DNA of 64,000 bases, taken from Larkinella terrae. GTDB taxonomy: Bacteria > Bacteroidota > Bacteroidia > Cytophagales > Spirosomataceae. Of the stretch, positions 44,829-55,052 are shown piece after piece. How positions within the stretch are numbered: the first letter of the stretch is position 1; each line of letters starts with the position of its first letter. The stretch covers positions 487,814-551,813 of the forward strand of contig NZ_WJXZ01000001.1 in NCBI RefSeq assembly GCF_009668025.1. The letters run 5' to 3'. The notes beneath the pieces are model-generated. The model saw only the letters and a list, made by a program, of their open reading frames with translations. It was not told the DNA's origin and made no database searches. The translations under genes and the position numbers were made by a program.

Positions 44829-47687
44829 ATGAAATCTGCTCAACCCGCGACCCATTCCGTAACTGTCCTTGCGCTTTTTGTTCTCCTTTTTTGCCACCAG
44901 ACCTTTGCGGTTTTGCCCGATCTGAAACCCGTCAACCTGCGGACGGAATACAAACTAAATCCGGTGGTGGATGCGGCCAAACCGCGCTTAAGCTGGGAAT
45001 TGACGTCGGCAGTTCGGGGCCAGTTGCAAACCGCTTACCAGATCAGGGTTGCGTCGTCACCGGATTTGCTGGCTGCGGACAAAGCCGATCTCTGGAATTC
45101 GGCCAAAACCAATGGTAGCGCCACGAATCAGATCGAATACGCCGGCAAACCGTTGGCTTCCCGAACGATTTGTTACTGGCAGGTCCGTAGCTGGGACAAA
45201 ACCGGTCAGCCCGGCCCGTGGAGTTCGACCGCCCGCTGGGAGATGGGATTGCTGAACAAATCCGACTGGAAAGCAGACTGGATCGGCAACGACCTCACGG
45301 CTTTAGGAAAAGGGAAAGTGTATCACTTACCACCGGCGCCGTTTTTCCGAAAGGAAACCCAACTGAAAGCTGCCGTAAAACAGGCCCGCTTATACGTCAC
45401 GTCGCTGGGGTTATACGAATTTCAAATCAACGGAAAACGCGTTGGAAAAGACCACTTTACGCCGGGTTGGACCGATTACAACAAGCGGGTTTATTACCAG
45501 ACATACGACGTGACGACCGATGTAAAAACCGGTAAAAATGCGTTGGGCGCTATTGTTTCGGAGGGCTGGTACGCGGGTTATCTCGGCTACGCCCTGCTGA
45601 TCGGCAATCCGGTTGTGAAGAATTTCTACGGCGATGTTCCGCTTTTGAAAGCCCAGTTAGAAATAGAATACGCCAATGGCGAAAAAGAAACCATCGCGAC
45701 GGATCAGAGCTGGAAAACGAATCACGGACCGATTCTGGAAGCGGATATTTTAAACGGGGAAACCTACAACGCCAATCTGGAATTCGGGAATTGGAGCCAA
45801 CCCGGTTTTGCCGATACAAACTGGAAAAACAGCACGGTTTATCCCGACAAAGCGGAACGAAAAATTGAAGTTTATCCGGGTAATCAGATTCAGGTTTTTC
45901 AGGAATTAAAATCAAAAACCGTTACGTCTAAAGCGGGCGGAAAGTATCTTTTTGATCTGGGACAAAATTTTGCGGGCGTTGTTCGGCTGCACGTCAAAGG
46001 CAATAAAGGCGACACGATCCGATTGCGGTTTGGCGAAATGTTATTTCCGAACGGCGAAATCATGACGGAGAATTTACGGAAAGCACGGGCCATCGATACC
46101 TACATTTTAAAAGGCGATAAAAACGGCGAAACCTGGATGCCCAAATTCACGTACCACGGTTTTCAATACGTCGAAGCCGCCGGTTTTAAAACCGCACCGG
46201 GCCTCGATGCAATCACCGGAATTGTCCTGACATCGGCCACTCCGCAAGCGGGTTCGCTGGAAACCGACAACCCGATGATCAACAAATTATACCAGAATAT
46301 TGTCTGGACGCAGCGCTCGAATTATTTCGATATTCCGACGGATTGTCCGCAGCGTGATGAACGGCTGGCATGGACGGGCGATGCACAGGCGTACATTAAA
46401 TCCGCTACATTTAACAACGATATTGCACCCTTTTTTACCAAGTGGCTGGTCGATTTAAACGATGCGCAGCGGCCCAATAATGCCTATCCCTTATATGCGC
46501 CCGCACCCAACGTTCGTAAAACCGATACTTATTCGCCGGGCTGGTCGGAATCGGGAATTGTCTGTCCGTACACGATTTATAAAACCTACGGAGACACGCG
46601 CGTGATTCGGCAATTTTGGCCGAACATGGTAGCTTATCTGAAATTTATGGAGGAGAAAAGCAAGGGCGAATACGTTTATAAAGAGCGGAGTTTTGAGGAT
46701 ATTTCTCCCAAAGGCGGCTACGGTGACTGGCTTTCGGTGGGCAAAAAAACGCCACCGGATTTGCTCGCTACGCTGTATTACGGCTACTGCGCTTCGTTAA
46801 TGGCTGAAATGGCCAAAGCGGTTGGAAAGACGGAAGAATCGGTTTATTACGAGGGTATTTTCAACAAAATAAAACAGGCTTTTCTGAATCATTACACCGA
46901 TCAAACGGGCAAATTTAAAACGAACAGCTCAGCCTATGGCGACGGCGAAGGGTACGTAATCGAAGGAAAATCAGGCTTTGATGGCCATACGCAAACCGCC
47001 TATGCCAACGCCATTTACATGCACATGCTGACGCCGGAACACGATCAGAAAGCCGGGAACTGGCTGGCCGATCTGATCAAAGAAAATGACAATAAACTGG
47101 CCACCGGTTTTTTAGGTCTCAAGCCTTTATTGCCCGCACTTTCAGCTACCGGACATACAAAAGAAGCCTACCAGTTATTATTAAGTACGGAATATCCATC
47201 CTGGGGTTTTGAAGTTATCAACGGGGCCAACACGATTTGGGAGCGCTGGAACAGCTACATCAAAGGCAAAGGTTTTGAAAATAATTCCGGTATGAATTCC
47301 TTTAACCACTACGCATTCGGATCGGTCAACGAATGGTTATTTGGCAACGCAGCCGGTTTAAAAGTGGGCGAAGCTGGGTATAAAACGTTTACGATCCGGC
47401 CCGAAATTGCCGCCGAAGGAATCCGTTCGGTGAAAGCCAGTTATTATTCGATGAATGGACTGATTGAAACCGCCTGGAAAAAAGAAGGCTCAACGGTTTC
47501 GTTCAAAACCACCGTTCCGGTCAATACGACCGCAACGGTTTTTATTCCGACAACGAATCCGGCGACGGTTAAGGAATCAGTGAAAGCATTAAAAACGAAT
47601 CCAGCAATTCGCGTTAAGGCATTTAAAGACGGTTATTTACAGGTCGAAATCGGCTCCGGAACTTATCAGTTTACGTCCCAAAACTAA
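44829..47687 (+). CDS. Alpha-L-rhamnosidase (GH78)
   Basis: A 952-residue secreted GH78 family rhamnosidase that removes terminal alpha-L-rhamnose from plant glycans or flavonoids. Signal peptide to about residue 28; an N-terminal beta domain begins VNLRTEYKLNPVVDAAKPRLSWEL; the middle domain has YVTSLGLYEFQINGKRVG and FTPGWTDYNKRVYYQTYDV; the (alpha/alpha)6 catalytic barrel carries IPTDCPQRDERLAWTGDAQ (about 500-518, catalytic acids), and WGFEVINGANTIWERWNSY. Standard architecture. It stands alone upstream of an alpha/beta hydrolase 9 bp away. Confidence 0.93.
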   Translation: MKSAQPATHSVTVLALFVLLFCHQTFAVLPDLKPVNLRTEYKLNPVVDAAKPRLSWELTSAVRGQLQTAYQIRVASSPDLLAADKADLWNSAKTNGSATNQIEYAGKPLASRTICYWQVRSWDKTGQPGPWSSTARWEMGLLNKSDWKADWIGNDLTALGKGKVYHLPPAPFFRKETQLKAAVKQARLYVTSLGLYEFQINGKRVGKDHFTPGWTDYNKRVYYQTYDVTTDVKTGKNALGAIVSEGWYAGYLGYALLIGNPVVKNFYGDVPLLKAQLEIEYANGEKETIATDQSWKTNHGPILEADILNGETYNANLEFGNWSQPGFADTNWKNSTVYPDKAERKIEVYPGNQIQVFQELKSKTVTSKAGGKYLFDLGQNFAGVVRLHVKGNKGDTIRLRFGEMLFPNGEIMTENLRKARAIDTYILKGDKNGETWMPKFTYHGFQYVEAAGFKTAPGLDAITGIVLTSATPQAGSLETDNPMINKLYQNIVWTQRSNYFDIPTDCPQRDERLAWTGDAQAYIKSATFNNDIAPFFTKWLVDLNDAQRPNNAYPLYAPAPNVRKTDTYSPGWSESGIVCPYTIYKTYGDTRVIRQFWPNMVAYLKFMEEKSKGEYVYKERSFEDISPKGGYGDWLSVGKKTPPDLLATLYYGYCASLMAEMAKAVGKTEESVYYEGIFNKIKQAFLNHYTDQTGKFKTNSSAYGDGEGYVIEGKSGFDGHTQTAYANAIYMHMLTPEHDQKAGNWLADLIKENDNKLATGFLGLKPLLPALSATGHTKEAYQLLLSTEYPSWGFEVINGANTIWERWNSYIKGKGFENNSGMNSFNHYAFGSVNEWLFGNAAGLKVGEAGYKTFTIRPEIAAEGIRSVKASYYSMNGLIETAWKKEGSTVSFKTTVPVNTTATVFIPTTNPATVKESVKALKTNPAIRVKAFKDGYLQVEIGSGTYQFTSQN

Positions 47688-47696
47688 GCGCTTCCA

Positions 47697-49031
47697 ATGG
47701 CACACCACCGAGTCGCAAACCAAGTCAGGATTTTGAAAAACCGCCTGCTCATGCTGCTGATGAGCGTCTCGGTACTGGCGCAGGCTCAGACAACTTCCGA
47801 CGCTTTTCTGCCCGGCGATCTCCTGCCCGACGCCCCCGAACTGGCACCCCGTGGCCGTTTTGCGGTAGGCGTCCGAACCCTGAAACTGGTCCACAAAGCG
47901 CAGTTGGATGTGTTGCATACGAAAGATGGAACCAGTCCGACTTACGACCGGCCACTGACGGTGGAAGTCTGGTATCCGGCGCTGATTCCGGCTGGGAAAG
48001 CACAACTCGTTACGTATGAGGAGGTTCTGGGCCGCGCCAACGATCCCAAACGGCCGCTGGTTCCGTTTACGTTTGGGGGCCGGGCGCTGCGCGAAGCCGA
48101 ACCTGATCCGGCCGGGGGCAATCCAGCCGGGGGAGCGTATCCGCTGGTGATTGTGTCCCACGGTTATCCGGGTTCCCGGCTTTTGCTGACGTATCTGACC
48201 GAAAACCTGGCTTCTAAAGGCTATGTCGTCGTTGCCATCGACCACACCGAATCGACCTACCGCGACCTGAGCGGTTTTCCGAGCACCTTGCTCAACCGCT
48301 CGCTCGACGACCTGTTTGTGCTGAACGAAATGGCCCGGCTGGGTGCCAAAAACGCGAACAATTTTCTGGCGGGTCTGGTCAATGCCGACAACACCGCGCT
48401 CATCGGTTACTCGATGGGAGGTTATGGTGCGCTCAATGTCATGGGGGCGGGTTACAGCGCGCAGGCGGTGAAGTTTTTCGGTCAGCTGGCGAACGGCAGT
48501 ACGGCGTTGCAAACCCGCACCCTCAGCGATCCCGGTTTTAAAGCGTCGCTCGATTCGCGCATCAAAGTCATGGTGGCGTTTGCGCCCTGGGGCATGGAGC
48601 GGGGCGTTTGGGACGCCGAAGGACTCGCAGGACTGACCCGACCGAGCCTGTTTATTGCGGGCAGCAAAGACGATGTGTCGGGCTACGAAAAAGGCATCAA
48701 AGCCATTTACGAAGGAGCCGTCAACGCCGACCGCTATTTGCTGACTTACGTGAATGCCCGGCACAATGTGGCGCCCAATCCGCCCCCGGCCGCCACGTTG
48801 AAACCCGGCCAGCCGCTCGATGATTACCAGCATTTCTCGGAACCTGCCTGGAACGAGCGTCGGATCAACAACATCAACCAGCATTTTGTAACCGCTTTTC
48901 TGGGCCTGCACCTCAAAGGACTCGACTACGCGAAATACCTGACGTTGCCCGAAAACGCCAATGACAGCCCCTGGAACGGTTTCAAACCCCGGACGTCGGT
49001 GGGGCTGGAAATGCGGCACGCGAAGCCGTGA
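47697..49031 (+). CDS. Exported alpha/beta hydrolase, dienelactone-hydrolase/PAF-acetylhydrolase-like
   Basis: A 444-residue secreted alpha/beta hydrolase. A signal sequence ends near SVLAQAQ. The oxyanion region is YPLVIVSHGYPGSRLLLTYL, the nucleophile is S in LIGYSMGGYGALNV (about 237-250), an aspartate lies in LFIAGSKDDVSGYEK and a histidine in VNARHNVAPNPPP, the full triad in order. The layout resembles the PAF-acetylhydrolase/chlorophyllase-like dienelactone hydrolases. Nine bp after the rhamnosidase gene, so perhaps co-transcribed. Substrate unknown. Confidence 0.8.
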   Translation: MAHHRVANQVRILKNRLLMLLMSVSVLAQAQTTSDAFLPGDLLPDAPELAPRGRFAVGVRTLKLVHKAQLDVLHTKDGTSPTYDRPLTVEVWYPALIPAGKAQLVTYEEVLGRANDPKRPLVPFTFGGRALREAEPDPAGGNPAGGAYPLVIVSHGYPGSRLLLTYLTENLASKGYVVVAIDHTESTYRDLSGFPSTLLNRSLDDLFVLNEMARLGAKNANNFLAGLVNADNTALIGYSMGGYGALNVMGAGYSAQAVKFFGQLANGSTALQTRTLSDPGFKASLDSRIKVMVAFAPWGMERGVWDAEGLAGLTRPSLFIAGSKDDVSGYEKGIKAIYEGAVNADRYLLTYVNARHNVAPNPPPAATLKPGQPLDDYQHFSEPAWNERRINNINQHFVTAFLGLHLKGLDYAKYLTLPENANDSPWNGFKPRTSVGLEMRHAKP

Positions 49032-49120
49032 AGTCGGACTATAGGCATCTTTTGTTCCATATCAATTGGTTGCTCAAATTCCGACAATTGAATTATCTTT
49101 ATTGAAAAAAAGCTTCAATC

Positions 49121-49324
49121 ATGTTAATAGAGCGAACGGCCAACGAGGTCATTATTCGACTGCCTGCCTCGGTGGACATCACCGGATTGCAGCGGGTTGT
49201 GGATTATTTGACCTACAAAGAAGCAACCGCCAATTCAAAAGCGAATCAGGAACAGGTAGATGAATTGGCCAAAGAAGTAAAAAAAGGCTGGTGGAAGCAA
49301 AACCGTAAGCGATTGTTGAAATGA
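49121..49324 (+). CDS. Putative antitoxin of a PIN-domain toxin-antitoxin pair
   Basis: A 67-residue basic protein starting MLIERTANEVIIRLPASVDI. The C-terminal half is a charged helix (DELAKEVKKGWWKQNRKRLLK). The last four bases are shared with the start of the PIN gene (ATGA overlap), the tight coupling typical of antitoxin-toxin operons. The fold is not clearly AbrB or RHH; identified as antitoxin by position. Stand-alone: no insertion sequence is near it. Confidence 0.7.
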   Translation: MLIERTANEVIIRLPASVDITGLQRVVDYLTYKEATANSKANQEQVDELAKEVKKGWWKQNRKRLLK

Positions 49325-49773
49325 GGAAAATAATTGTTGATACCAACATTATTTTCTCATGCCTTTTGAATACGCAAGGCACTATTGGCGACCTGATTTT
49401 TAATTCCAATGATATCTTTGAGTTTTACAGCAATGAGTATATGCGTTATGAAATACGCAAGCATTGGGCGAAAATCAAAAAGATTTCCAAGCTCACCGAT
49501 CTACAGCTTGAGACTTCTTATGACAAGCTTCTGACCAAACTGACTTTCATAAACGAAGGGCTGATTCCTAAAATCATTTGGAGAAAATCCGAGGTTTTAG
49601 TGGCTGATATTGACGAAGACGACATCGATTTTGTAGCCTTAACGAAATATTTGAAAGGCAGTTTGTGGACAGGAGATAAAATTCTTTATTCAGCATTAAA
49701 GGCAAAGCGTTTTCGCACGGTTTACAATACGGCTGAACTGGTTAAACTCAGAGATAAGGTTGCTGAAAAGTAA
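49321..49773 (+). CDS. PIN-domain toxin (VapC-like)
   Basis: A 150-residue PIN-domain protein. The N-terminal IIVDTNIIFSCLL carries the first metal-binding Asp; further acidic residues are in VADIDEDDIDFVALTKYLKG and LWTGDKIL (about 95-120), the usual order D...E...D-D. PIN toxins are Mg-dependent ribonucleases that cleave tRNA or rRNA, held in check by the antitoxin. Overlaps the antitoxin gene by 4 bp. AT-richer than neighbouring genes, suggesting horizontal transfer. Confidence 0.85.
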   Translation: MRKIIVDTNIIFSCLLNTQGTIGDLIFNSNDIFEFYSNEYMRYEIRKHWAKIKKISKLTDLQLETSYDKLLTKLTFINEGLIPKIIWRKSEVLVADIDEDDIDFVALTKYLKGSLWTGDKILYSALKAKRFRTVYNTAELVKLRDKVAEK

Positions 49774-49799
49774 ATATATCAGCGCAAAATCGGTAAAAG

Positions 49800-50285
49800 A
49801 TGAAACCGGTTATTCAATCGCTTTTCCTGCGCAATCTCTTTTTTACGCTGCTTCAACCCGGCATCGTAACCGGTTTAATTCCTTATTTAATCGTCAGAAA
49901 TCAGTTACGAAGTCTGTTTGCTAAACCGTTCGAAATTCACCATTATCTCGGAATCGGAATCTGGTTTTTGGGACTCATCATCCTGACTGATTGCATCATC
50001 CGGTTTGCCACGGAGGGTCGGGGAACCATCTCACCCGCTGATCCAACCAAACGGCTGGTCGTCAAAGGCTTGTACCGGTTTTCCCGAAACCCGATGTACG
50101 TGGGGGTAATGCTTGTTTTGATTGGAGAAGCGGTTTTCTGTCCGGCCATCGCCTTGTGGATGTATACGATTTCCGTTTTTATCGCGGTCAGTGTATTTGT
50201 CATTACCCACGAAGAACCGCGTTTGCGAAACGATTTTGGGGCCGACTATGAAGAATACTGCCGACGCGTAAGACGATGGATCTAA
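49800..50285 (+). CDS. Isoprenylcysteine carboxyl methyltransferase-like (ICMT/PEMT) membrane protein
   Basis: A 161-residue protein with four or five hydrophobic helices. The C-terminal catalytic signature is LYRFSRNPMYVGVMLVLIGEA (about 97-117) followed by ITHEEPRLRNDFGADYEEYCRRV. This is the shared pattern of ICMT, PEMT and steroid-like membrane methyltransferases, which use S-adenosylmethionine. The substrate is probably a lipid or a small thiol, not known. It follows the PIN toxin by 27 bp and is convergent to the FtsZ-like gene. Confidence 0.85.
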   Translation: MKPVIQSLFLRNLFFTLLQPGIVTGLIPYLIVRNQLRSLFAKPFEIHHYLGIGIWFLGLIILTDCIIRFATEGRGTISPADPTKRLVVKGLYRFSRNPMYVGVMLVLIGEAVFCPAIALWMYTISVFIAVSVFVITHEEPRLRNDFGADYEEYCRRVRRWI

Positions 50286-50321
50286 GAAAATTTCGGCCGC
50301 AGGAATTCGATTTTAAAAAAA

Positions 50322-51176
50322 TCAATGTCCCATTGGAGTCCAGAGAAGGATGGTCATTTTAAGCCGATCCGCCAACGCATGGTCCTCCGTGTAAACCGTT
50401 TTGAAGAGTCGGGGCAGTGATCCGATCTGGTCGGTAAGCCCTTTTACCAGCGTATGTTGTTCCCGCATACGTACCGGGTTAACCGGACTCCCACTCAGAT
50501 TCAACAGAATCCGATCAACACCCTGCATTGCAAACGGAAATGCCGCCAATTGGTCGATAATTCCGGCTAAAACCGCTTCACTTCTTTGTTCTCCACCCGC
50601 TTCCTCTTCCACAACTGCCATTCGACCCATGCCACGCATGACATAGGCGACGTCCGAAAAATCCACGGTATCCCAACTGGCCCGGCACATGGCAACTAAT
50701 CCACGAATTGCCCTTTCCATCGAATAAACAGGCGTGTCAACACCAGCAGCCGTGGATCGCACGACGATCAGGCCGTCGCATAAGCTATTCATTCTCTGCA
50801 AAGTAGCTTCATCCGGAATGGCCGCGACAGCCAGGATGGCCACACACCGCCGATCCATAGCCCGAATTTGTTGAGCCACCCATGTAGTAGTACGACTTAT
50901 TCCGTCATCATCCAACTCGGCAACGATAAAGACCAGTTCGGTTGATTCCACTGTTCGACTGATTTCCTCCGTTAGCCGTTGGTCAGCCTGCGCAATCTCT
51001 GCTTCGTTCTGAGCCAGCCGTATTTTGACAGGAATGAAGGACGCGTTCAGGGCGGTTACGTTGTCCAGACAAATCACAAACCGGCTATTTTGCATTCCTG
51101 ATTGGTAGATTTTTTCCAGAACTGCTCCACCGGTTGTACCAATACCAATGATTGTAAAAAAGTCTTCCATTGTCAT
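50322..51176 (-). CDS. Divergent FtsZ/tubulin-superfamily protein lacking the GTP-binding signature
   Basis: A 284-residue protein that aligns end to end with the FtsZ core. The N-terminal phosphate loop is FTIIGIGTTGGAVLEKI (FtsZ: VIGVGGGGGNAV). ELVFIVAELDDDGISRTTTWVA sits where FtsZ has the tubulin signature MVFIAAGMGGGTGTGAAPVVA, so GGGTGTG is replaced by DDDGISR. VDFSDVAYVMRGMGRMAV matches the T7 catalytic loop NVDFADVRTVMSEMG, keeping both aspartates (N to T). RILLNLSGSPVNPV and LKMTILLWTP match the C-terminal domain strands. Length is shorter than FtsZ (about 380); the C-terminal tail is missing. The family match is my own alignment from memory. Function unknown; not the division FtsZ. 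Start at M of MTMEDFF or MEDFF. Confidence 0.75.
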   Translation of the reverse strand: MTMEDFFTIIGIGTTGGAVLEKIYQSGMQNSRFVICLDNVTALNASFIPVKIRLAQNEAEIAQADQRLTEEISRTVESTELVFIVAELDDDGISRTTTWVAQQIRAMDRRCVAILAVAAIPDEATLQRMNSLCDGLIVVRSTAAGVDTPVYSMERAIRGLVAMCRASWDTVDFSDVAYVMRGMGRMAVVEEEAGGEQRSEAVLAGIIDQLAAFPFAMQGVDRILLNLSGSPVNPVRMREQHTLVKGLTDQIGSLPRLFKTVYTEDHALADRLKMTILLWTPMGH

Positions 51177-51283
51177 TAAGTCGACGCTAAACGGGTGATT
51201 GTGTACTAAAACCATTCAAATGTACCCTGCCGGGCTGGATTAGCAATTCAGCCCGGCACAAAATACGTTGGTTTTTACTTGCC

Positions 51284-51412
51284 CTATTTCAACACAAACA
51301 ACTGCAAAACCGCCCTTTTTCCGTCGTAACGTACCGGTTATAGCCAATCATATCGCCTTTGTTCGACCGGACGATTCCGTTCCAGACTTTTGAGTCGTCT
51401 GATGAGTCTGTT
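51284..51412 (-). pseudogene. Broken copy of the 3' end of the DUF3748 gene
   Basis: Reading minus, it encodes a close match to the last about 40 residues of the 52646-54016 protein (SDDSKVWNGIVRSNKGD, GYNRYVTTEKGRF), then a one-base deletion shifts the frame before the shared end. DNA identity to 52646-52770 is about 80 percent over roughly 125 bp. It flanks the DUF4143 ATPase gene on the far side from the intact gene. Confidence 0.85.
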
Positions 51413-51433
51413 CTAAAAACAAGTAAAAATCAA

Positions 51434-51491
51434 AATTTAGTGATTGTAATCGACAAATTTTAGTTAATTTGTCGATTACAATCACTAAATT
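51434..51491. repeat. 26-bp perfect palindrome in front of the DUF4143 ATPase gene
   Basis: Arms 51434-51459 and 51466-51491 are exact inverted copies around TTTAGTT-type 6-nt loop. It ends five bases before the ATPase ATG. Its inner word is GATTGTAATCGAC. It may be an operator, or a site for the protein itself. Confidence 0.9.
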
Positions 51492-51496
51492 AAGAA

Positions 51497-52630
51497 ATGA
51501 TTGCTCGCTTTTTAGAAAATCAACTTCGTAAACGCTGGGATTCCGGAAAAGCATTGGTAGTGATGGGACCACGGCAAGTGGGGAAAACGACGCTTTTACG
51601 CAAACTCTGTGACGAGGAGGGCGCTTATCTCCTGCTCAATGCCGACGAAATCGACGTCCGAAACCAGCTTGAAAACATAAATCTGGCCCGGCTTCGTCAG
51701 CTCATCGGCCCAAACCGGGTGGTTTTTATTAATGAAGCCCAACGAGTTCCGAATATTGGCTTGACACTCAAACTCATTACGGATCAGCTCCCGGCCATTC
51801 GGTTGCTGGTGAGCGGTTCTTCGTCATTTGACTTAGCCAATGAAATCAATGAACCATTGACCGGGCGAAAATGGGAGTTTCGGCTCTATCCTATCTCGTG
51901 GCAGGAATTGGTTGGCAGTATCGGTTTTCTGGACGCCCGGCGACAGTTGGAAACACGGCTTCTCTACGGTTTTTATCCCGAAGTCGTCACCAGCCTTGGC
52001 GACGAACGGGCAATCTTGCAACAACTCAGCAGCAGCTATCTCTACAAAGATCTGCTCACATTTGGTGGCATTCGTCGACCCGAACTGTTGGAAAAGCTGC
52101 TCGTCGCGCTGGCATTACAACTTGGTAACGAAGTATCTTACAACGAATTATCCCGAACGCTCCAGGTCGACCGGGCCACCGTAGAGTCCTACGTCAGTCT
52201 ATTGGAAAAAGCCTTTGTCATCTTCCGGCTACAGCCGTTCAGCCGAAACTTACGGAACGAAATCAGCAGCAGCCGGAAGATTTATTTCTATGATAACGGT
52301 ATTCGAAACGCCATTCTCGCCGACTTCAAACCCCTCAGTTTGCGAGCCGATGTAGGCGCTTTGTGGGAGAATTTTTTAGTCAGCGAGCGGCAAAAAGTAC
52401 TTCATTATCAGCAAATTTGGGCTAAACCTTACTTCTGGCGCACGCACCAGCAGCAGGAGATCGATTATGTAGAAGAGCAGGACGGAGCTTTACGGGCCTG
52501 GGAATTCAAGTGGAACCCCAACGCTAAAATCCGGTTTCCTAAAACATTCACCGAAGCCTACCATCCATCCCAGACGGAAGTTATCCACCCGAATAATTTT
52601 GAGGAATTTGTTGGAATGGTGCCCGCTTAG
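51497..52630 (+). CDS. ATP-binding protein with DUF4143 domain
   Basis: A 377-residue AAA-like ATPase. The N-terminal domain has Walker A GPRQVGKTT (about 25-33) and Walker B VVFINEAQR (N where D is usual), and a sensor-like LLVSGSSSFD. A winged-helix-like middle follows, and a C-terminal DUF4143 nuclease-fold part with QEIDYVEEQDGALRAWEFKWN (D...E...K), like the restriction-endonuclease fold. Such genes spread widely in Bacteria without known function; transposition-like behaviour is suspected. Here the gene is preceded by a 26-bp palindrome and flanked by a duplicated gene end. Confidence 0.88.
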   Translation: MIARFLENQLRKRWDSGKALVVMGPRQVGKTTLLRKLCDEEGAYLLLNADEIDVRNQLENINLARLRQLIGPNRVVFINEAQRVPNIGLTLKLITDQLPAIRLLVSGSSSFDLANEINEPLTGRKWEFRLYPISWQELVGSIGFLDARRQLETRLLYGFYPEVVTSLGDERAILQQLSSSYLYKDLLTFGGIRRPELLEKLLVALALQLGNEVSYNELSRTLQVDRATVESYVSLLEKAFVIFRLQPFSRNLRNEISSSRKIYFYDNGIRNAILADFKPLSLRADVGALWENFLVSERQKVLHYQQIWAKPYFWRTHQQQEIDYVEEQDGALRAWEFKWNPNAKIRFPKTFTEAYHPSQTEVIHPNNFEEFVGMVPA

Positions 52631-52645
52631 ATTCGTTCACTTTTC

Positions 52646-54016
52646 TTATTTCAACACAAACAACTGCAAAAACCGGCCCTTCTCCGTCGTGATGTACCGG
52701 TTATAACCAATCATATCGCCTTTATTCGACCAGACGATTCCGTTATGGGGTTTTGCGTCGTCCGACGAGCGGGGTGTCAGGCGTTTGAATTCGCCGGTCG
52801 CTACTTCGGTGATAAACACGCTGTTGTCGGCGGCATAGGCCACCCAGCGGCCGTCGGGGCTGAAATTGAAGGTCGTCTGAATCGAAAACGGTTGTTTGGT
52901 CAGTTGCCGGATGGCACCGCCGTTGGGCGACACACCAAATAACTGAATCGTTCCGGCGGCATCTTTCGCCAGAAAACCGATCACCGAGCCGTCGGGGGGC
53001 GTCCGGAGCCAGTGCCGGGGACCTTCCGCGCCGTGTTCCGTAAACGTAATCCGGCGCTGCGTCACGCCTTTCGGCGGATTCGGGCGCGTCGTAGCAGTTC
53101 CTTCCAGCGGCTGACCGTCAGCGGCTTGTGTGAGGTTGTCGGGCAAATCGGCCACGAAAATTTCCGTAACGGTTTTGCCTTCCTTATTCCGCACATTTCC
53201 CTGAAAAGCGATGGCGCGATTCTGCCGTGTACCGTCCGGTTTTACGTACCCATTGCTGCCAATCCATCCCTCGTCAAACGCCTTGTCAATTTCGTCGCTG
53301 CCCGGTTTGGGATTTTCGGTCGCCCGGGTGACCAACACCGAAAACAGCTCACCCGAATTGTTTTCCAGCGAACCGTCGTCGGACACGTTCACCTTGCCGA
53401 ACGGCGCCATGACGCCCACCACGCGCAGATCCTTCACCGCCGGATTGGTTTTGCTCAGTTGATTGATAGGGTAATCGTTGTACGTAAAGCTGATCCACTG
53501 GCCGTCGGCGCTCCAGTAGTGCGCGTGCGTACCGCCCCGCAAAGCCCCCGGCGTAAATGGCGGAGTAACATCGCGGGCGTCCAGAAAAATGGGTTTTCCG
53601 GGCTGATCGGTGTCGATGGCCACGCCCGTCCGGCGGTCGAAATCGTACGGTTTTTCTTTGTTCGCGTTGCGAATGCCGTGAATAAACAGCACCCGGTTTC
53701 GAACGGGCGAAAACGTGGCCGCGCCCACGCCCGGGCCAAACTCAGTCTGGTGTTCGGTTTTGTACAGGGGGCGGATTTCACCGGTTTTCACATTCACCAT
53801 TTCGATGGCGCCCGTGCCGCCAATGCCGCCGTCCTGGTTCCGGGTGTCGTAAACGATCCACTCGTCGGAGGGTGAAAAAGCCTGATTGTTGTGAATGGTG
53901 TGTCCTTTGGTGTCAAATGTCAGTTGGTGTTCAGTGAAATTCATTTTCAAATGCGGTTTAGGAGCGCAGGCCTGAATACCTACGCCAAAGAGAAGCCAGC
54001 CGATCCGGGAGTTCAT
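52646..54016 (-). CDS. DUF3748 lipoprotein (WD40/TolB-like)
   Basis: A 456-residue lipoprotein: signal MNSRIGWLLFGVGIQACAPK with lipobox cysteine, then a DUF3748 domain of beta-propeller type. Family marks: HQLTFDTKGHTIHNNQAFSP, WIVYDTRNQDGGIGGTGAIE and FNFSPDGRWVAYAADNSVFI near the end. Resembles YidR-type proteins and TolB/DPP-like propellers. Function unknown. The start was moved six codons inward to the signal peptide. A decayed copy of its 3' end lies 1.2 kb away. Confidence 0.85.
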   Translation of the reverse strand: MNSRIGWLLFGVGIQACAPKPHLKMNFTEHQLTFDTKGHTIHNNQAFSPSDEWIVYDTRNQDGGIGGTGAIEMVNVKTGEIRPLYKTEHQTEFGPGVGAATFSPVRNRVLFIHGIRNANKEKPYDFDRRTGVAIDTDQPGKPIFLDARDVTPPFTPGALRGGTHAHYWSADGQWISFTYNDYPINQLSKTNPAVKDLRVVGVMAPFGKVNVSDDGSLENNSGELFSVLVTRATENPKPGSDEIDKAFDEGWIGSNGYVKPDGTRQNRAIAFQGNVRNKEGKTVTEIFVADLPDNLTQAADGQPLEGTATTRPNPPKGVTQRRITFTEHGAEGPRHWLRTPPDGSVIGFLAKDAAGTIQLFGVSPNGGAIRQLTKQPFSIQTTFNFSPDGRWVAYAADNSVFITEVATGEFKRLTPRSSDDAKPHNGIVWSNKGDMIGYNRYITTEKGRFLQLFVLK

Positions 54017-54017
54017 A

Positions 54018-54175
54018 CGATTTACGGTTTTCAATTTTCGGTATACGGAAAAACCGTATACGGTTTACAGTTTACGGTGCGGTTCCCCGCCGGGACTGAC
54101 GCGTTCCCATTGCGTGCGTCAGCTACCGTAAACCGCATACCGTAAACCGTAAACTATATACCATAAACCCTAAAC
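54018..54175. repeat. Composite palindrome of TTTACGG words
   Basis: GTATACGGTTTACAGTTTACGGT on the left pairs imperfectly with ACCGTAAACCGCATACCGTAAACCGTAAAC on the right, with an inner CTGACGC...GCGTCAG hairpin and an 8-bp GTATACGG/CCGTATAC hairpin (54041-54061). It lies between the DUF3748 start and the AraC stop, both minus. Confidence 0.65.
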
Positions 54176-54185
54176 TTTGTACCAT

Positions 54186-55052
54186 TCACTGAAGATAATT
54201 TCGCTTGTATTCGAGGGGGGTAATGCCTTTGACGCGCTTGAAATGGCGGTAGAAGTTCGATAAATTGTTAAAACCGCTCTCAAAACAGATGGCTTCCGCG
54301 CTAAGTTTGTTCTCAACCAGCGCCCGGCACGCGTGGCTAACCCGGATTTCGGTCAGAAACTCGTGGTAGGTTTTGTGGGTCATCAGTTTAAAATACCGGC
54401 AAAAGGACGTCACGCTGAGGTTGGCAACGGAAGCAATTTCGTCGAGGGTGATTTCCCGGGCGTAATTGGCCAGCGTATGGCTGTAGACTTTATTCAGCCG
54501 TACGGTTTCCAGTTCGTTCGATTGGTAGAAAACCCGTTCCGACGTAATTGTTTCCAGTTCATCGGATTGCGCCAGTACTTCCAGAATCGACAGCAACACG
54601 ATCAGCCGGTGCAGCGGTTTGGCTTCCACCGCCCTGTGCAGCAACTCGGCCACTTTTTCGCAGGTTTCGCCTTTGATCAGCAAGCCTCGCAACGCCTTTT
54701 CGTACAGCCGCCGAATGGGTTGGGTTTCAGCCAGATTCAGAAAATCGCGGCCCAGACAATCCGGCCGGAACTGCATCACGATCGCTTCGACCAGATTGTC
54801 TGGGTCTTCCCGAAAATAGGCTTCATTACACCGCCAGGTGTGCGGCAGGTTCTCGCCCACCAGCAGCATCTCCCCCGCCGAAAAATTACTGACATCGTCG
54901 CCAATAAACCGAACGCCCTCGCCCCGAATCACGTAATGTAACTCCAGTTCGGGATGATAATGCCAGATGTTGCCAAAATTGGCCTTAACGTCGTGCCGGA
55001 TGCTGAACGAATCCTGGGCGTTGACGGGTACCTTGTAAAAATGCGCCTTCAT
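54186..55052 (-). CDS. AraC-family transcriptional regulator
   Basis: A 288-residue regulator. An N-terminal cupin-like sensing domain has NIWHYHPELELHYVIRGEGVRFI and FSAGEMLLVGENLPHTW (about 30-75). The C-terminal AraC DNA-binding domain (about 190-288) has two helix-turn-helix motifs, ITLDEIASVANLSVTSFCRYFK and SAEAICFESGFNNLSNFYRHFKRVKGITPLEYKR. It is divergent from the sodium symporter gene and very likely controls the catabolic operon 55288-62848, with a sugar acid or its product as inducer. Confidence 0.92.
   Translation of the reverse strand: MKAHFYKVPVNAQDSFSIRHDVKANFGNIWHYHPELELHYVIRGEGVRFIGDDVSNFSAGEMLLVGENLPHTWRCNEAYFREDPDNLVEAIVMQFRPDCLGRDFLNLAETQPIRRLYEKALRGLLIKGETCEKVAELLHRAVEAKPLHRLIVLLSILEVLAQSDELETITSERVFYQSNELETVRLNKVYSHTLANYAREITLDEIASVANLSVTSFCRYFKLMTHKTYHEFLTEIRVSHACRALVENKLSAEAICFESGFNNLSNFYRHFKRVKGITPLEYKRNYLQ

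Follow-up and report, generated by a model that had tools for sequence, protein, structure and literature searches.

A diverged FtsZ paralogue in Larkinella terrae that has lost the nucleotide-binding face and keeps the synergy loop

We analysed a 64-kb stretch of Larkinella terrae DNA (contig NZ_WJXZ01000001.1), referred to below as the window, and within it the gene at 50322-51176 on the minus strand. This gene is an FtsZ homologue. Its product is a diverged FtsZ paralogue, predicted to fold as FtsZ does, that has lost the nucleotide-binding (top) face, which harbors the T4 signature GGGTGTG, together with the C-terminal linker and tail, and has kept the T7 (bottom) face. The canonical FtsZ of the same genome lies on another contig (G000:C17), has 472 amino acids and adjoins an open reading frame (ORF) that by eye resembles FtsA. 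An earlier note on this DNA had proposed a nucleotide-dead FtsZ subunit that keeps its synergy loop, an idea supported by the homology, the predicted fold and the T7 aspartates of related T4-lost paralogues.

Homology to FtsZ and predicted fold

The homology runs along the whole protein, as that note had read it. BLASTP against the genome's own FtsZ gives 23% identity over 295 columns (E 5e-11), and the segments GIGTTGG, LVFIVAE and VDFSDV fall, in this comparison and in the FtsZ alignment, where they had first been placed. A hidden Markov model (HMM) built from the FtsZ of 66 relatives scores the window protein at 79.7 bits (E 2.5e-23), against a top score of 9.5 bits for 2000 shuffles of the same protein. 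Searching PDB chains with phmmer at E up to 10 returned 45 sequences, 43 of them FtsZ, including all of the best 38 (top E 1.9e-4). A profile of the nine T4-less paralogues of the host's taxonomic family, the window protein among them (profile A2), matched 51 PDB sequences within an E-value limit of 0.01; FtsZ takes the first 49 places (top E 1.4e-27), ahead of a Ktr protein (2e-5, on the N-terminal columns) and then one further FtsZ-named chain. Aligned with hhalign to an FtsZ alignment (A6), profile A2 reaches 99.9% probability (E 1.3e-36) over 285 columns.

Concerning the fold, a first structure model had a poor C-domain; later AlphaFold predictions resemble FtsZ whether or not the input contained FtsZ rows, and the predicted model has the two-domain FtsZ/tubulin architecture. 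The window protein falls short of the curated family models. NCBIfam TIGR00065 matches all nine T4-less members, the window protein at 23.6 bits (E 2.9e-5), far under the cut-off of 295.2. Pfam Tubulin matches two of the nine and FtsZ_C one, all weakly and in neither case the window protein, which has no Pfam match over cut-off, and Pfam alone was discarded as a route of identification. Tubulin_2, the Pfam family of FtsZl-1 and FtsZl-2, leaves the window protein unmatched at E up to 1. Neither the PDB profile search nor the NCBIfam scan places another family above FtsZ.

Loops kept and lost

The features of the gene are as follows, the loops being placed by alignment and the promoter-like site by sequence match.

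50322..51176, minus strand: coding sequence including the stop, T4-less FtsZ paralogue, 284 amino acids
51126..51146, minus strand: T1 loop equivalent GIGTTGG, residues 11-17
50892..50912, minus strand: T4 signature position, residues 89-95, DDDGISR replacing GGGTGTG
50649..50669, minus strand: T7 (synergy) loop TVDFSDV, residues 170-176
51217..51246, minus strand: promoter-like site TTG-N19-TACATTTG

As the earlier note had pointed out, GGGTGTG is rewritten to DDDGISR, with no match at any of the seven positions, while D172 and D175 of the window protein correspond to the two catalytic T7 aspartates of FtsZ. The C-terminal linker and the conserved tail peptide are indeed gone, since the protein ends with the core after 284 amino acids, against 472 in the genome's own FtsZ. 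The claim that only the signature is rewritten does not hold: T2 is altered (CNTD to CLDN), T3 and T5 are deleted, T6 is lost, and the T7 asparagine (N216 of the own FtsZ) has become a threonine.

At least 95% of the 66 FtsZ agree at 97 columns, and the same pattern appears when these are compared with the nine T4-less paralogues of the family. On average the FtsZ residue is present in 2.7 of the nine. Ten columns are kept in all nine (own-FtsZ numbering), i.e. the T1 glycines G26, G28 and G31 (G11, G13 and G16 of the window protein), the T7 aspartates D218 and D221, and G241, R244, L270, K307 and D313; an eleventh, a tail proline, was discounted as an alignment artefact. By contrast, no more than one of the nine keeps any given T4 column (G115-G121), T3 has for the most part been deleted, all nine have a deletion at G149 of T5, and N52 and Q56 of T2 as well as N175 and D195 near T6 survive in no copy. 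Hence, the loss extends beyond T4 to the entire top face. What the window protein shares with canonical FtsZ is thus the fold, as predicted, the order of elements and these ten columns; what it lacks are T2 to T6, the linker and the C-terminal peptide.

DDDGISR itself is not a new conserved motif, and this possibility was ruled out because the segment drifts among relatives, reading NDAGISR in Larkinella rosea and NEPNTSR in G005, so that the conservation looked for in related genomes was not found. L. rosea is a congener of the source genome and carries its paralogue near PIN and PEMT genes as well. Between the two copies the T4 stretch differs (DDDGISRTTTW against NDAGISRTATL), whereas WDTVDFSDVAYVMRG is identical.

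A scaffold that keeps its T1 glycines in nine of nine copies while T2 to T6 are largely gone might also have acquired a function unrelated to FtsZ, with a Rossmann-type core (GxGxxG kept) binding another ligand or a protein. Weak matches to dinucleotide-binding folds point the same way (proC for the window protein, E 0.085; ThiF/MoeB and MurD-like proteins for single members, E 0.0023-0.085). However, such a function offers no plain reason for the T7 aspartates to persist, no other family beats FtsZ in the searches described above, and in Pfam, which gives the window protein no FtsZ match, the only two matches, at E about 0.05, lie far below cut-off. We consider this explanation unlikely.

Reading frame, promoter-like site and selection

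The minus-strand ORF spans 50322-51215, and an inner ATG at 51176 yields the 284-residue protein, which begins MTMEDFF. The 3' end of the promoter-like site lies 40 nucleotides ahead of this ATG, which favours 51176, the start given in the earlier note. The site has what we take to be the Bacteroidota -33/-7 promoter form, and TTG-N17-23-TAnnTTTG occurs only twice in the whole 64-kb window on both strands, one occurrence being this site. A site of that form is not kept in the DNA upstream of the L. rosea copy.

Pairwise ratios of nonsynonymous to synonymous substitution rates (dN/dS, Nei-Gojobori) are 0.23 for the window and L. rosea paralogues (dS 0.50), and 0.18 and 0.21 for two other T4-less pairs (L070/L063 and L064/L065). 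A pair of T4-intact paralogues (L066/L101) gives 0.09; the neighbouring genes PEMT and PIN give 0.14 and 0.15, and real FtsZ gives 0.04 and 0.06. The paralogue gene is therefore held by purifying selection, less strictly than FtsZ.

These values speak against a decaying duplicate without function, as do the nine T4-less family copies, all open frames of 284-304 amino acids, and the promoter-like site ahead of the window gene. On the side of decay stand the patchy occurrence and five FtsZ-like fragments (L107, L176, L177, L180 and L197), some with stops in the matched stretch, which suggest gene turnover. Decay strikes us as very unlikely.

Distribution and recurrence

The survey counts may be too low, since more diverged copies may escape detection. 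Among 222 genomes of the family, 17 carry a second, shorter paralogue, counting those that were read: nine lack T4, six come from one other genus (T4 intact or half lost), one has half of T4 and no T7, and one is a fragment. Those resolved among the other second matches in the family are pieces of one gene, contig-end scraps or, in G153, a second FtsZ-size frame. In a sample of 390 genomes of the order, 17 outside the family give two matches. The second lies at a separate place in 14 (one a full-length FtsZ, some short or with stops), and G338, G339 and G397 were dismissed as carriers because their two matches are pieces of one gene. Family f12 shows at least two matches in 27 of 150 genomes. 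Outside the order, four of 284 genomes of the class give two matches, with no T4-less paralogue among them as far as they were followed: G656 and G800 have one gene, G697 a second FtsZ-size frame and G537 a 45-residue scrap.

The set used to assess recurrence comprises 49 sequences of the order, the window gene and 48 further loci, including a full-length second FtsZ (L181) and three FtsZ cores borne by Septu genes. Seventeen have lost T4 and keep the N-domain, and every one of these has the T7 DxxD. Eighteen have no N-domain (DxxD in 12, one aspartate in 4, none in 2, one of the latter being a scrap without that stretch), and 11 have T4 intact (DxxD in 9, one aspartate in 2).

In a quick tree, L171 is sister to the FtsZ of its own genome (99), the paralogues of one genus group with the FtsZ of that genus (93), and the Septu-borne FtsZ fall among those of f12. 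These groupings make several separate duplications likely, and T4 loss looks recurrent, although this tree, in which long branches meet and from which L065, L068, L101, L104, L105 and the copies without N-domain were excluded, deserves less trust. A more careful tree, without L107, places the nine T4-less family copies together (99/99) and supports the split between paralogues and FtsZ at 35/98 only; on a single origin of all T4-less paralogues the evidence speaks neither for nor against.

A possible regulator of FtsZ filament ends

In FtsZ the two T7 aspartates promote nucleotide hydrolysis in the adjacent subunit (PMC8936486). The face retained here is the one that enters the guanosine triphosphate (GTP) site of the next FtsZ and the face lost is the one that receives a further subunit, so that a capping end-binder would be the plainest consequence. 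With its T7 face the paralogue would bind filaments of the cell's own FtsZ at the end that carries GTP, and there its aspartates would complete the GTPase site and trigger hydrolysis. Its top face would be unable to hold GTP, and no next subunit could add. At substoichiometric levels it would then close off filament ends and consume the GTP bound there, slowing Z-ring growth and leaving filaments capped or shortened, possibly in response to some physiological trigger. We give this reading, a filament-end regulator acting as cap and hydrolysis trigger, slightly less than an even chance.

Several observations weigh against it. T7 is not retained whole, as N216 is lost in eight of the nine T4-less family paralogues, and the bait explanation discussed below makes use of the same T7 face. 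Occurrence is patchy, with a T4-less paralogue in three of nine genomes of the window's genus and nine of the 222 of the family, and 15 of the 17 family loci, the window's included, have none of the partners sought. The 17 T4-lost copies of the recurrence set include near relatives and stand for far fewer independent events, and stops truncate L177, which is one of these copies. Finally, other combinations exist: the three loci of that set with partial T4 all lack DxxD, L106 combines GGGTGSG with loss of the first T7 aspartate, L105 has a largely preserved T4 and no T7, and L170 joins an intact T4 to a T7 with one aspartate.

If binding to FtsZ is true, the paralogue would be a naturally evolved half-subunit in which one face of the FtsZ interface is separated from the other, and would allow a direct test of which filament end governs growth and where hydrolysis triggers.

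SulA is an FtsZ inhibitor that binds the T7 face, and ARC3 of chloroplasts carries an FtsZ-like domain. ARC3 inhibits Z-ring assembly (PMC13335998, PMC13274647). The window protein may resemble it in action, as an FtsZ-derived inhibitor of FtsZ assembly, a likeness of function and not of sequence, and differs in having no room for a further domain. Inhibitors of the T7 face, by prediction including Gp0.4 of phage T7 (PMC13423816), act at the interface where the window protein would, but they bind that face whereas the window protein presents one. FtsZ paralogues without key FtsZ-tubulin motifs are known, above all in archaea, and their roles are called obscure (PMC2875224); the window protein shares the loss of motifs, but is bacterial and retains T7 selectively. 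FtsZl-1 and FtsZl-2 are likewise outliers of the FtsZ/tubulin superfamily (PMC2875224), with N- or C-terminal extensions (PMC9871819), and differ from the window protein in the Tubulin_2 match that it lacks.

A survey of the FtsZ/tubulin family was queried with PF00091 (PMC9871819) and hence probably missed T4-less copies. Whether it is a regulator or a bait, Pfam-style annotation overlooks the T4-less paralogue because the tubulin model leans on the half that was lost. Among the titles and abstract openings of the literature matches listed, most subscription journals lying outside them, nothing was found on a bacterial FtsZ that lacks T4 and retains T7, nor on pieces of FtsZ within Septu, GmrSD or Mrr loci.

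Defence-linked relatives

The retained T7 face could instead serve as a bait or guardee. Phage proteins, or others, that target FtsZ at this face would be drawn to the decoy and either titrated away or signalled to a defence protein, and the window copy would be a free-standing example of such a device. Phage T7 Gp0.4 binds FtsZ, on a surface predicted to be that of the synergy loop, and CapRel senses the complex (PMC13423816), while rare FtsZ/tubulin members appear in nucleoside triphosphate (NTP)-dependent conflict systems (PMC7159879); for these reasons the explanation is a serious one, above all for the defence-linked relatives.

Partners were sought with Mrr, WYL, GmrSD and PtuB seeds at the 17 family loci and at 32 loci outside the family. 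At two of the 17 (L070 and L063), both in the clade of the window gene, Mrr is encoded on the same strand and precedes the paralogue by 33-36 bp. Outside the family a WYL regulator is found within 1.5 kb at 15 of 32 loci, 13 on the same strand, as a raw count. Eight of these 15 also have GmrSD genes (a ninth, L171, is weak). At L173, L176, L187-L190, L200 and L201 truncated or T4-less FtsZ parts stand on the same strand as the WYL regulator and the GmrSD genes. Three f12 genomes have, directly ahead of PtuB, a single frame of 779-790 amino acids whose ATPase ends enclose an FtsZ core with intact GGGTGTG.

L170:5134-7506: Septu-borne FtsZ frame
L203:4879-7251: Septu-borne FtsZ frame
L204:4942-7281: Septu-borne FtsZ frame

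For L203, PADLOC gives PtuA at 8.3e-140 and PtuB at 1.4e-89, and Pfam Tubulin matches residues 98-257 at 5.5e-47; L204 is alike. The PtuA assignment covers the ATPases of L203 and L204; for L170 the scan covers PtuB. The Septu-borne FtsZ part is near the FtsZ of the host family itself.

On the other side, WYL, GmrSD and PtuB were found with these seeds at none of the 17 family loci, the window and L. rosea loci also have no Mrr, and at 14 of the 32 loci outside the family WYL, GmrSD and PtuB are all missing, some of these contigs ending early. The only defence-labelled neighbour of the window gene, an AAA_14/DUF4143 ATPase (PADLOC PDC-S01), was not taken as a defence partner because it is divergent and not present at the L. 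rosea site. We regard a bait as possible and, on balance, doubtful; were it true, FtsZ would be one more host protein that bacterial immune systems monitor, and several unrelated systems would do so.

In a wider scenario, which we offer tentatively and would not expect to hold, bacteria of this order repeatedly duplicate FtsZ, shed the GTP half of the copy and put its retained T7 face to use in immunity, as part of a WYL-GmrSD operon or next to Mrr, or, with the GTP half retained, spliced into a Septu ATPase. The FtsZ part would be an integrated decoy or division-arrest arm through which restriction-type systems detect or imitate an attack on division, and the window gene its free-standing form.

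Separately, at L191:4862-5731 the T7 and C-domain of FtsZ (matched by profile A4 only) are fused to a C-terminal FtsK-gamma winged helix (Pfam FtsK_gamma, 1.5e-12), and L178, L192, L193 and L195 resemble this fusion by eye.

Neighbourhood of the window gene

The gene stands alone, as the earlier note had it: in a Pfam scan of six ORFs in 47500-54500, the paralogue included and the ORF 52646-54034 lying outside the scan, the remaining five include no division gene. Nothing at the locus points to a partner gene. Downstream, on the opposite strand, are the PIN and PEMT genes, both kept at the L. rosea site, where the PEMT/ICMT-type gene also adjoins the paralogue and ORFs of 178 and 182 amino acids flank it.

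49800..50285, plus strand: PEMT/ICMT-type methyltransferase, convergent (Pfam)
51274..51406, minus strand: copy of the 3' end of the ORF 52646-54034, 84% identical over 134 columns
51434..51491, no strand assigned: perfect inverted repeat with 26-nucleotide arms and 6-nucleotide spacing, between the paralogue and the AAA_14/DUF4143 gene
51497..52630, plus strand: AAA_14/DUF4143 ATPase (PDC-S01), divergent, upstream (Pfam, PADLOC)

A search of the genome with the inverted repeat, to an E-value limit of 0.001, matched no other place. The duplicated 3' end of the ORF 52646-54034 (51274-51406 and 52636-52769) flanks the AAA_14/DUF4143 gene on both sides, and on visual inspection part of the second copy also lies upstream of the paralogue in L. 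rosea, with another ORF intervening there.
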